Origin: Mortierella sp. BCC40632
Lineage: Eukaryota > Mortierellomycota > Mortierellomycetes > Mortierellales > Mortierellaceae
Length of the DNA stretch: 64,000 bases
NCBI GenBank assembly: GCA_011634665.1
Contig: WAEK01000033.1
Coordinates: 1-64,000 of the forward strand
Direction: 5' to 3'
Both the position numbers and the translations under genes were made by a program. The number at the start of each line of letters is the position of its first letter. Positions within the stretch are counted from its first letter, which is position 1. Positions 1 to 54,599 of this stretch are shown piece after piece. Under the pieces are notes generated by a model, which saw only the letters and a program-made list of their open reading frames with translations, ran no database searches and was not told where the DNA came from.

Positions 1-105
1 AGGGCTCTTAACTACGCTAACAAAGAAAAACAATCTAAACACCCCCAGCTCAGTCTTTTATTCATAATAATATGTCTTCTAAGAATAATAAATCAATATT
101 TATAA
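1..105 (+). CDS. nad3: nad3, 3' end only (first copy)
   Basis: C-terminal tail of NADH dehydrogenase subunit 3, a membrane subunit of respiratory complex I; the rest lies upstream of the window. The first ten codons read RALNYANKEK, nearly identical to the end of a second partial copy at 2525-2755. In that copy the next codon is the stop TAA; here it is CAA, so the frame runs on for 24 codons through a C-tract (35-46) to TAA at 103-105. The extension overlaps the GIY-YIG reading frame that starts at 72. Either nad3 has a longer tail here or this copy is displaced or mis-sequenced. Confidence 0.75.
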   Translation, partial: RALNYANKEKQSKHPQLSLLFIIICLLRIINQYL

Positions 106-655
106 ATACAAATAGTAAATATAATATTAGAAATTTTAGTTCTGCATCAAATAATGGTTTACTTAAGGATTACTGGTTAAATCTGAAACCAGTTTCTAAG
201 TGGTATTGTTTAGATGAGAATGGTAATTCTATTAATTATTCTAATGAGTTCAAGGAAATTAATGGAATTTATATTTTTAGATTAATTAAAGAACCTTGGA
301 AATGTTATGTAGGTAGCGCAGTCTCTTTATCTAAAAGATTACTAACTCATAAATGGGCTTTTATTCATTCTATTAATTCTGGTAATTCTTCAGTTCCTTT
401 ATTTTATAATGCAATTAATAAACATGGTTGGAAATCCTTTGAAATAGCAGTCTTAGAGATAGTGCCTATAGCAGAATTAGCTAATCGTGAGAATTATTAT
501 CCCTACTATAATCTAAAAATATTCAATTGATGGTAAAGTTCAACATTCAGATGAAGTACGAGCTCAAATTAGTTTATCTGTTTTAGGCGAGAATAACCCT
601 TTTTTTGGACGGACGCATAGCGAGATATCCAAATTAAAGATCTACTAAATTATTA
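72..655 (+). pseudogene. GIY-YIG homing endonuclease, 5' part, interrupted
   Basis: Reading frame 72-530 gives 152 residues with a GIY-YIG nuclease core: NGIYIF near residue 63 and CYVGSA near residue 79. After a frameshift near 530, a NUMOD3-like motif (NPFFGRTHSE) follows at about 595-625. The gene is then cut by an atp6-leader GIY-YIG cassette (about 660-1726), and its probable C-terminal NUMOD1 part resumes at about 1735. It follows nad3 directly, so it looks like an element inserted at the nad3 3' end. The family cuts DNA to spread its own gene. Confidence 0.7.
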
Positions 656-659
656 TCTA

Positions 660-845
660 AACTGGCTATGTCCGTTGTAAAATATATAATGACAAGTACA
701 ATTTCTATTATTATATATATGCTAATTTTTATTTTCAACTATTATGTTATTTTATTTGTTCAATTCTTTTCATATAAGGCGAGAGCATATAGCTTAGGGT
801 TACGATTAACGGCCAATATGATTAAAGGCCTTGCTTTCATTTTTC
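660..845 (+). repeat. atp6 leader and atp6 coding fragments (copy)
   Basis: The stretch from 663 matches the region just upstream of atp6 at 36577-36630 (ggctatgtccg..., then ataa/gacaagtacaatt). Further on, at about 779-826, it matches internal atp6 codons for ARALSLGLRLTANMI. The two atp6 pieces are joined by unrelated A+T-rich sequence and lead into the GIY-YIG frame downstream. Confidence 0.75.
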
Positions 846-1676
846 TTATATTTTTTACATATAATATCTTTTTTGATCTTCTTTATCCTGATTCTATTAT
901 TATTTATTCTTTTATTCCTATAATAACATATTCAAATGCTGAAACAGACAAGTTAAAAAATTTTAGTTGATTCTAAACAGAAAACTGGTATTTATATGTG
1001 GAAGCATAAAGAATCGGAGAAAATTTATATAGGTTCTGCAATGGATTTATCTAATAGATTTAATATGTATTTTTCTAAAAGTAGTTTAAGTCGTCATACA
1101 TATTCTTATATATATAACGCTTTATTACTCCATGGCCTTTCTATGTTTTCTTTTATCAATTCTTGAATACGTTGATGTCTCTAATTTATCAAAAAAGAAG
1201 ATGCCCGTAAACTAATTTTGGAACGAGAACAGTACTATCTTGATATCATTTTTAAGGAGACTAAACCAAATATTTATAATATCTTAAAGGTAGCAGGATC
1301 TCGCTTAGGAACACGACATACTAACGAAGCGAAAGATAAAATTAGTAAAGCTAATTCTGGTGAGAATCATTCAATGTATGGTATTGATAGAACAGGTGAG
1401 AAAAATCCAATGTTTGGAAAAACTCATTCTGTTAAAACTTTAGATAAAATAAGTATAGCTAAAGGTACATCTATTTATGTTTATTCTTCGGATGGTTCAA
1501 CACTTATTAATACTTTTACTTCAGCAAGGAAAGCCGCTGAGGAATTTAATTGTGACCATACAACTATCATGAGATATGTTAAAAATAATAAACTATTTCA
1601 GAACAAATGGATTTTATCAGCAACCTTAATTATTAAAGGAAAAATAGTAGGGGTTCTAAATATACTATTGCTGTAG
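668..1676 (+). pseudogene. GIY-YIG/NUMOD endonuclease with atp6-derived N-terminus, frameshifted
   Basis: The N-terminal 50 or so residues derive from atp6 (see the fragment at 660-845), followed by the family signature YSNAETDK and then [12 protein letters not shown]...IYIGSAMDLSNRF. Frameshifts occur at about 965 (A run) and about 1155 (TTTTCTTTTATCAATTCTTGA). The rest is open from about 1165 to the stop at 1676: [10 protein letters not shown] region, NUMOD3 repeats (NPMFGKTHS) and a C-terminal NUMOD1 helix-turn-helix (AAEEFNCDHTTIMRYV). It ends just before a C-tract at 1701-1726. The same frameshift at the ILEY position is seen in the genes at 5518 and 15343. Confidence 0.75.
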
Positions 1677-1734
1677 TCTTGTTATATATTAGACTCCTAG
1701 TCTAACATCCCACTGGCCCCCCCCCCTCCTGTAA

Positions 1735-52261: not shown

Positions 52262-52915
52262 CTAGATTCATTAAATGAATCTATATAACTATATATAACT
52301 ATATATGACTATATTTATAAAAAATAAATCTTATAATAAAAGATCTATCCGGGATATTAATAAATTATTTATTAAAAACATCTTATTTTCTTATTTAAAT
52401 TAGATGATCAGCCTCCTCCCGAAGGGAGGGGGCCCCCCTGCGGGGAGCCTCTTTGGGGTTAATTGAGGGATTCGAAGAATTGATCAGCGACGTTGCCATA
52501 GATCTTTCTATGCAATAAGCTATCAGATTTGCTAAGGATCAAAATTAATAAATTAATATTGACTACTCTCTCTCTCTGAGAATGAATATACCGATAAAAG
52601 ATCTATAAGACCTTAAATAATATAATAATACTTATTCCCAAAGGGGCTGATTATTATTTTTTCACAAAACCTCTGACTACTTTATTTGATCAATAATAAA
52701 TTTTTTTTATTTATTTAAATAAGCCTGCTTAAATAAAGTAGTATGCCTTATATACAAAAAATAAAACTTGATTAATTAACTTTTATAATGATAATTACTT
52801 GTTTAACAAGAGACTAATTCAAGTTTCTGTTCTTCGGGCTGAAACACCCTGAGTTTCTATAGATAAATAGTAAGTAACTTTTCATATATAAGTGGGGTCC
52901 AACCAGGATTAGTGA
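52262..52915 (+). other. Spacer before nad6
   Basis: No gene is seen. GC blocks at 52415-52450. 52455-52545 has tRNA-like words (gagggattcgaagaattg, in reverse cttcgaatccctc) without a full cloverleaf. Confidence 0.45.
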
Positions 52916-53052
52916 GATCTTTTTCTTTTTATTAGCGAAGCCAATATTCTGGAAGCAAAAGATAAAGAATAATTATCTAAGGCTAGGATTTATATATTTT
53001 GGTTATTGATTATTAAATTAATTCACCATTACCAGGAGCTCTAAATAAAAAA
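52916..53052 (+). promoter_or_regulatory. nad6 leader
   Basis: Long leader with tctttttattagcgaagcca, atattctggaagcaaaagat and taaggctaggattta before ATG 53053. A copy stands before the endonuclease at 50866. Confidence 0.75.
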
Positions 53053-53691
53053 ATGAATATCTTATTACATTTATTAACATTCACTTCTATTCTATCAGCC
53101 CTTTTAGTTATTACTGCTAGAAGTCCTATAGTTTCGATATTGTTCTTAATAGCAGTATTTATAAATATAGCTGGTTACTTAATTTTATTAGGTATTAATT
53201 TTATTGCCTTAGCTTATATAATGGTCTACATCGGGGCCATCGCAATATTATTCCTTTTTGTAATTATGATGCTAAATGTACGTTTAACAGAGATTAATCA
53301 AATAGGAGCTAATTATAGTAAAAATGTGCCATTAGCAGTTATAATTGCATCAGCATTAAGTTACTTAATAACATCTAACTCTTCTTTATCTAAATTAGAT
53401 AATGTTTATTTAATTTCAACTATTTTTGATAAATTAAATTATTTGTTCTTAGGTATTAACTCTTCAGATAATACTGTCTATACTGGATTTAATGCAATTT
53501 ACAATAATATTTTTGTTAATTACGATCAAATCCAAGCAGTAGGTGGGATTATGTATTCTACTTATGGATTGTATTTAGTTCTTGCTTCGTTCATTTTATT
53601 ATTAGCTATGTTAGGTCCTATCATTATCACGTTAGATAACCCTCAAAAAGTGTCTAACACCCCCCCCCTAGTAAATCTTTTAATTTATTAA
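53053..53691 (+). CDS. nad6: NADH dehydrogenase subunit 6
   Basis: 212 residues with five likely membrane segments. Typical nad6 core: NFIALAYIMVYIGAIAILFLFVIMMLNVRL. Complex I membrane subunit. The end is odd: after VSN the frame crosses a run of nine C (53660-53668) and ends eight codons later at TAA. With eight C it would end at TAG directly; with ten C it would run into the LAGLIDADG frame downstream. Confidence 0.95.
   Translation: MNILLHLLTFTSILSALLVITARSPIVSILFLIAVFINIAGYLILLGINFIALAYIMVYIGAIAILFLFVIMMLNVRLTEINQIGANYSKNVPLAVIIASALSYLITSNSSLSKLDNVYLISTIFDKLNYLFLGINSSDNTVYTGFNAIYNNIFVNYDQIQAVGGIMYSTYGLYLVLASFILLLAMLGPIIITLDNPQKVSNTPPLVNLLIY
53653..53669 (+). terminator. C-tract at the end of nad6, possible slippage site
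   Basis: gtctaacaccccccccct. Three outcomes depend on the C count: stop (8), short tail (9, as given), or fusion to the next endonuclease (10, or a -1 slip). The motif itself is shared with many gene ends in the window. Confidence 0.55.
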
Positions 53692-54365
53692 AGAATAAGG
53701 AAAATAATTTAGGTGTTCTTCGTCGACATTATAGTACTAAAAGACTAACTAAAGTTGAAAAGGATTCTTTCTCTGTACCTCAATATTTAGATGAAGTAAT
53801 AATTGGTTGTACTCTCGCCGATATTCATATACGTTATATTCCTAAAGGGATAAATCCAAGATTAGAGTTTTCACAAGGTATAGTTAATGAATTATATCTT
53901 TTTCATTTATATGATTTATTCAAGGATTTTTGTCCTTCTTCACCTAAATATAGTCACCCTAAACCTGATAAACGTACAGGAAAAATATATAGTAAAATAA
54001 TTTTTTATACTTATTCTTTACCTTGCTTTAAGTATTATCATTCTTTATTTTATGTGAATGGTGTAAAAATTATCCCTGACAATATAGGTGAAATATTAAC
54101 ACCTGTAAGTTTAGCGCATTGGGCAATGGGAGATGGATATAAGTCTAAATCAGGGTTTACTTTTAGTACAAACTCCTATACTCTTAGTGAAGTACAACTA
54201 TTGGTTAAAGTTTTGAAAGATAAATTTGATTTAAATTGTACTATTCATAAAACTTCCGGGAAAGATCAACATCTTATTTATATAGCAACTGGCTCAATGT
54301 CTAAATTTCGATCTTTAGTAACTCCACATTTCCATGAATCAATGATGTATAAAATTGCTGGCTAA
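53667..54365 (+). CDS. LAGLIDADG_2-type endonuclease opening at the nad6 C-tract
   Basis: The frame is open from the C-tract (53667) to TAA at 54365, 232 codons, with no ATG before 54054, which lies deep inside the protein. EVIIGCTLADIHIRY is near codon 48, [21 protein letters not shown] motif near codon 148, and the end [15 protein letters not shown] is present. Expression would need read-in from nad6, a -1 slip on the C run, or a non-ATG start. Same family as 17544 and 22390. A C-tract follows at 54461. Confidence 0.75.
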   Translation, partial: PSKSFNLLKNKENNLGVLRRHYSTKRLTKVEKDSFSVPQYLDEVIIGCTLADIHIRYIPKGINPRLEFSQGIVNELYLFHLYDLFKDFCPSSPKYSHPKPDKRTGKIYSKIIFYTYSLPCFKYYHSLFYVNGVKIIPDNIGEILTPVSLAHWAMGDGYKSKSGFTFSTNSYTLSEVQLLVKVLKDKFDLNCTIHKTSGKDQHLIYIATGSMSKFRSLVTPHFHESMMYKIAG

Positions 54366-54599
54366 TTATTATTTATGGTTTAATTGTGTGCCGAGGGAGC
54401 CACTCGCCGTTGGGCTCCCTTCTTTTTCTCATCTATTATTCCGTTAGACTCTAAAAAGGAGTCTAACACCCCCCTTACCGCGAAAGTGGCTCAAATAAAC
54501 TATTTAACAATATTAGTAGGGTTATCTTTTATTTTTTATTATTTTTCGAGATTTCTTCATTATTTTCTGAATTTGTTTTATCTATTTTTGTTCCAGTAA

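Follow-up and report, generated by a model that had tools for sequence, protein, structure and literature searches.

How homing endonuclease genes (HEGs) in mitochondrial introns and spacers obtain their expression is the question raised by the stretch of DNA considered here, since the expression of organellar intron open reading frames (ORFs) without exon fusion is poorly explained. The window, that is, the whole stretch analysed, comprises bases 1-64000 of contig C33 (110,666 nt) from a 49.9 Mb assembly. It contains 16 HEG cassettes with a copied 5' end of a resident gene, and further cassettes lie outside it, among them those on a second contig, C36 (65,035 nt). We consider it probable that these copies are 5' untranslated leaders of host genes, with or without the first codons, which were acquired by HEGs and have been kept by selection as an expression module. 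Coordinates without a contig name refer to C33, and (-) denotes the minus strand.

Endonuclease cassettes that carry leaders of resident genes

Ten donor genes were recognised on C33 and C36 together: cox1, cox2, cox3, cob, atp6, atp8, atp9, nad2, nad4L and nad6. The host leaders within the window are the following.

3640-3876, plus strand: cox1 host 5' leader (cox1 ATG at 3877)
36577-36638, plus strand: atp6 host 5' leader (36639 adopted as the coding start; 36591 is a further in-frame ATG)
39915-40015, minus strand: atp8 host 5' leader (atp8 ATG at 39914)
45606-45677, plus strand: atp9 host 5' leader (hairpin at 45640-45661)
52910-53052, plus strand: nad6 host 5' leader

The 16 cassettes of the window are the following.

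658-1241, plus strand: atp6-leader copy (658-713, 88%, blastn) and a broken GIY-YIG frame (984-1241)
9165-10370, plus strand: atp6-leader copy (9165-9214, 84%, blastn) and ORF 9348-10370 (LAGLIDADG_2 then LAGLIDADG_1), just behind a LAGLIDADG motif frame
12701-13618, plus strand: cox1-leader copy (12701-12911; blastn 12701-12804 and 12831-12911) and disrupted GIY-YIG frames
15309-15888, plus strand: copy of the nad2 leader and N-terminus, and GIY-YIG ORF 15343-15888 (domain incomplete)
17460-18257, plus strand: atp9-leader copy (blastn) and LAGLIDADG_2 ORF 17544-18257
18767-19395, plus strand: cox1-leader copy (blastn 18767-18853 and 18815-18924) and GIY-YIG ORF 18925-19395
20999-22091, plus strand: nad2 N-terminus copy and GIY-YIG ORF 21003-22091
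22317-23097, plus strand: atp9-leader copy (22317-22376, 60/60 identical to the host leader, blastn) and LAGLIDADG_2 ORF 22390-23097; splits a LAGLIDADG_1 ORF, remainder 23203-23490
27296-28212, plus strand: cox1-leader copy (27296-27529, 78%, E 6e-52, blastn) and LAGLIDADG_2 ORF 27508-28212; splits a LAGLIDADG_1 ORF, remainder 28279-28455
28767-29752, plus strand: nad4L-leader copy and GIY-YIG ORF 28961-29752
37542-38425, plus strand: nad4L-leader copy and LAGLIDADG_1 ORF 37745-38425
40394-41850, plus strand: composite leader (cob leader 40394-40709, 88% over 325 nt; its final ~37 nt and the N-terminus resemble cox1 as well) and LAGLIDADG_1 ORF 40705-41850
44153-45226, plus strand: atp9 leader (85%, blastn) and first 13 atp9 codons fused to GIY-YIG ORF 44228-45226
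46004-46937, plus strand: atp9-leader copy (blastn) and GIY-YIG ORF 46080-46937
48502-49296, minus strand: atp9-leader copy (49296-49226, blastn) and LAGLIDADG_2 frame (domain 48559-49068; ATA in place of the relatives' ATG)
50730-51870, plus strand: nad6-leader copy (50730-50853, 86.5%, blastn) and GIY-YIG ORF 50866-51870

A preliminary description of this DNA had reported at least 14 endonuclease starts preceded by leader copies; every copy it named was recovered by blastn, and the number of such cassettes rises to 16 in the window, with more beyond. One leader that it had left unplaced (28821, 37603) is indeed present in two copies (80% between the block at 28800 and 37597-37732, blastn), but it can be placed after all: it belongs to nad4L, whose host gene, supported by Pfam, starts outside the window at C36:35321(-). 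To its inventory we add the nad2 5'-end copies at 15309 and 20999, the cob leader at 40394-40709, and copies of the cox2, cox3 and atp8 leaders located outside the window. In the same search from host-gene starts, which covered neither rps3 (not located) nor nad3 from its own start, nad4 gave one 28-nt far-upstream match only and nad5 gave none; a nad1 match lies at C36:3116-3035(-).

The cassette ORFs are of the free-standing HEG type, with a GIY-YIG or LAGLIDADG domain and no fusion to the local exon. They mostly start at their own ATG behind the leader; the HEGs at 30266 and 31723 are exon-fused. All 13 cassette ORFs that were scanned exceed the Pfam cut-offs (the cassettes at 658, 12701 and 48502 were left out). 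Nine of the 16 cassettes lie inside cox1, where the leaders come from atp9, atp6, nad2, nad4L and cox1 itself.

Two orphan pieces, a 5' block of the cox1 leader (50391-50485) and a nad2 N-terminus (48058-48121), have no scored HEG directly behind them. Dispersed intergenic repeats similar to far-upstream sequences of atp6, nad2 and cox2 were also seen (C33:39479, 54803(-), 98678(-) and 109349; C36:37903(-) and 55924), and no endonuclease domains were found behind these repeats.

Leaders and endonucleases are associated beyond chance

Pfam scans of C33 and C36 gave 75 HEG domain hits after split hits were merged and most second domains and some fragments were dropped by hand. The sequences upstream of these domains were compared with the host leaders of eight of the ten donor genes (cob was taken at C36:22717, and atp8 was absent). 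For 28 domains, the 420 nt upstream contained a match to a host leader that scored 45 bits or more: 14 of 31 GIY-YIG, 11 of 22 LAGLIDADG_2 and 3 of 22 LAGLIDADG_1 domains. Among 600 dinucleotide-shuffled upstream sequences none reached 40 bits, and the maximum was 36.5. The preliminary description had stated that its claim would fall if the leader blocks were no more alike than random A+T-rich sequence. The window, at about 72% A+T, might favour such chance similarity of repetitive sequence; with 28 of 75 real upstream regions at 45 bits or more against 0 of 600 shuffles at 40, this explanation is refuted, and the probability that we still allow it is negligible.

The association was also seen from the side of the leaders. 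After merging, 23 of 39 leader copies were followed within 450 nt by a scored HEG domain on the same strand, compared with 17% at random coding-strand points (p 6e-9). Five of the remaining 16 copies lead into HEG frames that were unscored in the domain list (C33:12726; C36:5779, 18880, 7853 and 12455). The other 11 do not, and consist of four atp6 and three cox2 upstream repeats, the nad2 pieces at 54806 and 71574 (the latter reaching the start), one nad4 match and the cox1 block at 50398.

Leader cores are conserved above the ORFs that they precede

Three cores were picked from the best-conserved parts of the leader alignments and scanned over C33 and C36 with 5-6 mismatches allowed. The 33-mer core of atp9 was found at 11 sites, all with 0-1 mismatch (6 allowed), the 29-mer core of cox1 at nine sites with 0-2 mismatches (5 allowed), and the 30-mer core of nad4L at five sites with 0-1 mismatch (6 allowed). 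These 25 sites are the three host genes and 22 others. No site with more mismatches was found, and the cores are thus all-or-none. Each of the 22 non-host sites lies upstream of a same-strand HEG frame within 500 nt (18 with a Pfam hit, four with a GIY motif recognised by reading); some of these frames are broken or partial.

In the six cassettes that combine an atp9 leader with a LAGLIDADG_2 ORF, mean pairwise identity was 96% in the leader block, 73% in the hairpin and 69% (59-77%) in the endonuclease domain, with 71, 78 and 61.5% at the three codon positions; it was 38% in the upstream flank and 44% in the sequence after the ORF. None of 619 33-nt windows within the ORFs matched the conservation of the core. 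Among the eight cox1-leader cassettes, identity was 92% in the 3' block, 78% in the 5' block and 35% in the 40 nt before the leader, and four of the eight lose their similarity at the ATG or within 6 nt of it. The leader cores are conserved above the ORFs, as would be expected of an expression signal.

These values bear on the possibility that the leaders are a by-product of homing, in which HEG insertion near gene 5' ends, by the route of N-terminal duplication or gene hybrids, left 5' fragments that are functionless fossils. N-terminal duplications and gene parts carried by HEGs are already in print, and the segment 44159-45607 fits this origin, with the atp9 leader, 13 atp9 codons and a HEG followed by a full atp9; the nad2 copies consist mostly of codons, and cox1 codons are present in four of the eight cox1-type copies. 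However, fossils should decay, whereas mismatches number 0-2 in the cores and identity is 69% in the ORFs next to them. Moreover, the similarity stops at the ATG in the other four cox1-type cassettes, and the nine cassettes inside cox1 have leaders of atp9, atp6, nad2 and nad4L besides those of cox1. We therefore regard this explanation as improbable, although the by-product route may have been the origin of the first captures.

Concerted evolution is another process that could keep leaders alike, through short-tract gene conversion with the host gene. The copy at 22317-22376 does not differ from the atp9 leader of the host at any of 60 positions, the unusual hairpin included, which is what such conversion would produce. 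In the other five atp9/LAGLIDADG_2 cassettes, however, the hairpin differs from that of the host and mostly still pairs, while the core differs by at most 1 base, and conversion tracts would need to end at the core edge every time. Conversion as the general cause is very unlikely in our judgement. All six cassettes have a common 3' junction (GTTCAARTCTAA before the start) that is missing from the host atp9 leader, which a single ancient capture with later divergence explains better than a series of recent captures.

Paired changes in a leader hairpin

Directly 3' of the atp9 core lies a 22-nt hairpin whose sequence varies while its pairing is largely kept (91% of cells pair). Five of its eight pairs have changed on both sides; the covariation score was reached in 0 of 500 shuffles and the number of double-changed pairs in 1 of 500. 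The signal is weaker in the nad4L leader, where a comparison of four sequences gave 3 double-changed pairs of 11 in two hairpins, a count reached in 7 of 500 shuffles. The distance from the anchor in the cox1 3' block to the presumed start is near-constant at 33-38 nt. These features argue for a 5' leader under selection as RNA, most probably a 5' untranslated region (5'UTR) that would serve host-dependent translation or 5'-end formation.

The blocks might instead be DNA elements, promoters or origins, rather than 5'UTRs, so that the HEGs carry host promoters; both kinds of element may be present. Several atp9 copies do have a sharp 5' edge behind an A+T-rich sequence of the TATAAAT/TATAATT type, and a promoter would be of use to HEGs whatever their orientation. 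Yet the conserved part starts at this edge and extends towards the ATG, the paired hairpin changes and the near-constant cox1 spacing suggest RNA, and copies in introns, if on the gene strand, would presumably be transcribed anyway. Purely DNA-level elements are thus unlikely to account for the blocks, although this possibility deserves to be kept in mind.

A motif resembling a tRNA T-arm, AGTTCAA[AGT]TC, has 25 matches in C33 and the full C36 (24 when the overlap copy of 3721 is subtracted), where about 1.7 would be expected from base composition. Twelve of the 24 sites are in leaders of the cox1, atp9/LAGLIDADG_2 and nad4L types (3721, 12788, 17530, 18829, 22376, 27359, 37606 and 49211(-); C36 51369, 32121, 29750 and 10844, all minus), and some of the others resemble tRNA T-arms. 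A tRNA-like (t-element) reading prompted by the repeated AGTTCAAGTC was rejected: despite the recurring T-arm-like GTTCAAGTC, the tRNA covariance model RF00005 gave no match at the leaders of the window at E up to 10. The host leaders of atp6 (36577-36600) and cox2 (C33:97622(-)) have AAAGTGGCTAT..CCG in common, and host leaders of different genes may thus have cis-elements in common.

Leaders and ORFs are separable and appear to move as a unit

The modular nature of leaders and ORFs, which the preliminary description had proposed to be exchangeable, is borne out by the combinations found: one leader stands before unrelated HEG families, and one family stands behind several leaders. Leaders of atp9, cox1 and atp6 each precede both GIY-YIG and LAGLIDADG_2 ORFs, those of nad4L precede GIY-YIG and LAGLIDADG_1 ORFs, and those of cox2 precede LAGLIDADG_1 and (47 bits) LAGLIDADG_2 ORFs. 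Composite leaders also occur, namely the cob leader with a cox1-like 37 nt and first codons (40394-40709) and the atp9/LAGLIDADG_2 cassettes with their added GTTCAARTCTAA. The HEG trees are weakly resolved, with 0 of 13 inner branches starred for LAGLIDADG_2 and 3 of 23 for GIY-YIG, and leader labels were as scattered on them as shuffled ones. In one supported GIY-YIG clade (98/94), a cox3-leader member stands together with a cox1-leader member and with a third for which no leader was recognised.

The insertion sites indicate what has moved. A LAGLIDADG_1 frame precedes each of the cassettes at 22317 (atp9), 27296 (cox1) and C36:29817(-) (atp9); counted from where its GGATTTAT/C-type LAGLIDADG-motif stretch starts, the cassettes begin 38, 34 and 51 nt further on, respectively. 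The invaded motif peptides include WVSGFISD (27296) and WISGFTSG (C36:29817(-)). Downstream of the three cassettes, LAGLIDADG_1 pieces follow from profile positions 8, 11 and 11. Because the LAGLIDADG_1 frame resumes behind the inserted cassette, the leader would be part of the unit that moved. In the segments 22290-23490, 27260-28455 and C36:28720-30350, LAGLIDADG_2 cassettes split LAGLIDADG_1 ORFs at LAGLIDADG motif codons, and endonuclease genes appear to have invaded endonuclease genes at the sequence coding for the active site. Similar motif frames precede the cassettes at 9165 and C36:51436(-), at distances of 67 and 188 nt, and two GIY-YIG cassettes with cox1 leaders, at 12701 and C36:32188 (minus), lie behind a stretch coding for KYL.Y (by eye). 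Judged from these positions, other endonuclease genes seem to have been invaded at comparable places by units that included the leader.

Genome context and neighbouring genes

C33:1-6920 overlaps C36:58107-65032 at 98%, and a weaker overlap exists between C33:109056-109905 and C36:1-842 (86%). Because they overlap at both ends, the two contigs appear to form a single mitochondrial genome of some 168 kb. It is apparently fungal, as judged from a match to the fungal atp8 family, the genetic code (table 4, used for translation) and the gene content. C40 and the 20 kb of C42 examined are near-duplicates of C36 (about 97.5-98%), and the segment 17300-18300 is present again in C48 (100%) and C49 (95%).

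Pfam supports cox1, atp6, atp9, nad6, cox2, cox3, nad4, nad4L, atp8, an internal cob exon and a nad1 exon. By its profile, cox1 extends from 3877 to at least 34343 with many introns. Its 3' end is probably at 34927, which gives a span of about 31 kb; we take this end from a familiar sequence motif, and the Pfam scan there gave no match to the cox1 family. The names nad2, first cob exon, nad5 start and nad1 start are likewise assumed from motifs, and the Pfam scan gave no match to the own gene family for the nad2 N-terminus and the nad5 ORF. The first cob exon was taken to start at C36:24490, where no ATG is visible; a cob start at C36:22717 was rejected, as this is an internal exon. The nad5 start lies about 390 nt past nad4L.

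At the end of the window there are two divergent B DNA polymerase genes of the organellar/viral type (PF03175; 57345-60311 minus, 60477-63500 plus) and an RNA polymerase fragment (PF00940) at 56010-56450. The polymerase genes at 56010-63500 are probably integrated linear-plasmid genes.

Discussion

The reading that we favour, in which HEGs acquired host 5'UTRs that selection has retained, accounts for the strand of the copies, their conservation above that of the ORFs, the hairpin and the choice of leaders. The capture would have run from host to HEG, because N-terminal codons came along in several cases (atp9 at 44228, cox1 at 27508 and others, and the nad2 copies). The mobile unit would be leader plus ORF, and its insertion into an intron, another endonuclease ORF or a spacer would bring its own 5'UTR along, which a HEG without exon fusion would otherwise lack. 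The captured leader could then recruit the nuclear-encoded, gene-specific factors that act in 5'-end maturation of the host mRNA, in the start of its translation, or in both. By this means an intron-containing precursor or an intergenic transcript might be enough for the endonuclease to be matured and translated, and thus to be made wherever the DNA is transcribed. The affected step may be 5'-end formation, translation, or transcription initiation as well.

The nuclear-encoded gene-specific activators of yeast mitochondria (Pet309, Pet111, Atp22, Aep1/2, Cbs1/2 and others) target the leaders of individual mRNAs. It is quite conceivable, if on balance somewhat doubtful, that the HEGs described here parasitise the nuclear-encoded 5'UTR factors of most independently led mRNAs and swap leaders freely, that they are expressed inside introns and other HEGs, and that the copies mark the minimal cis-elements of these factors. 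If so, selfish DNA would be tied to the nuclear control of mitochondrial translation. The five nad4L, nine cox1 and 11 atp9 paralogous leaders would also amount to a natural footprinting experiment, showing the nucleotides and hairpins that are kept.

Several observations weigh against the retention of these leaders as expression modules. In the domain test, 47 of the 75 HEG domains had no leader copy (a few gain one via atp8 or cob). Some cassettes are broken or have no ATG where one is expected, and the nad2 copies share mainly codons, part of them in shifted frames. Four of the eight cox1-type cassettes remain similar for 54-82 nt beyond the ATG; as these run into cox1 codons, the captured piece is more than a UTR. 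One cox1-type copy (C36:18808) is similar also upstream of the 5' block. The choice of cores from the best-conserved parts flatters their absolute conservation, and the full identity at 22317 suggests some conversion or recent capture. With regard to structure, the pair-type count of the atp9 hairpin is unexceptional (113 of 500 shuffles), and the nad4L covariation is weak because the structure slid by -3 likewise yields three double-changed pairs. Single sequences do not fold clearly better than their shuffles (z -1.7, -1.2 and -2.6 for the atp9 type; 0.7 to -1.2 for the nad4L type).

The open-licence literature in PubMed Central (titles, beginnings of abstracts and passages; many subscription papers lie outside this scope) yielded no paper on HEGs behind captured 5'UTRs. 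Relative to that literature, the scale, the use in introns, the swapping of leaders and the evidence of conservation are new. No exact match to the three leader cores was found in viral contigs, none to one core in prokaryote genomes and none to one cassette in plasmids, these being collections that are not expected to include fungal mitochondria. The comparisons below refer to passages of the papers cited.

The closest relatives are found in Heterobasidion, where 5' partial genes (PA_nad2, PA_cox3, PA_atp8) lie upstream of cox2 and of intergenic ORFs, a role in expression of the downstream ORF was suggested, and capture of cDNA was named as a possible source (Himmelstrand et al. 2023, PMC10234125). 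In both systems the 5' end of a core gene is copied directly upstream of another ORF. That the copy drives expression of this ORF is a suggestion in both cases. In Heterobasidion, three core-gene fragments stand before cox2 and intergenic ORFs (uORF9, function unknown), and the passages concerned do not speak of HEGs behind the fragments, introns, shared RNA structure or tests of conservation; here there are ten donors, HEGs of three families, locations in introns and spacers, conservation and paired changes. The novelty claimed in the preliminary description is to be narrowed accordingly, since 5' gene ends before mitochondrial ORFs had already been described (PMC10234125).

Introns with N-terminal duplications have been reported in Tremella (Deng et al. 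2020, PMC7315562). As in our cassettes, 5' parts of genes travel with mobile elements and the N-terminus is favoured. The duplicate in Tremella, however, is mostly that of the invaded gene and is treated as a by-product, whereas here leaders lie inside the introns of another gene and the 5' leader sequence is kept.

Mobile ORFs also make C-terminal gene hybrids, in atp6 of Allomyces and in atp6, atp9, cox2 and nad3 of Glomus (Beaudet et al. 2013, PMC3630166). An endonuclease ORF moves with part of a resident gene in those cases too. There, the C-terminal part replaces that of the host; our cassettes have an upstream leader with no evident role in host repair. Instead of an ORF with a replacement C-terminal part, we found leaders 5' of the HEG, in nine of 16 cases inside cox1 and in several with the leader of another gene. 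Possible exceptions of the hybrid type are 44153-45607, 9165-10370 (with a possibly restored LAGLIDADG_1 motif behind) and 17460-18749 (with a second LAGLIDADG_1 C-terminal piece).

In core creep, intron ORFs fuse in frame to the upstream exon and thereby gain host expression signals (reviewed in PMC8393795). Core creep and leader cassettes address the same problem, the access to host expression signals. The former is a local fusion to an exon, whereas the cassettes described here are unfused and bring the signal of a distant gene. Captured leaders kept by selection would be a second route, beside core creep, to the expression of intron ORFs.

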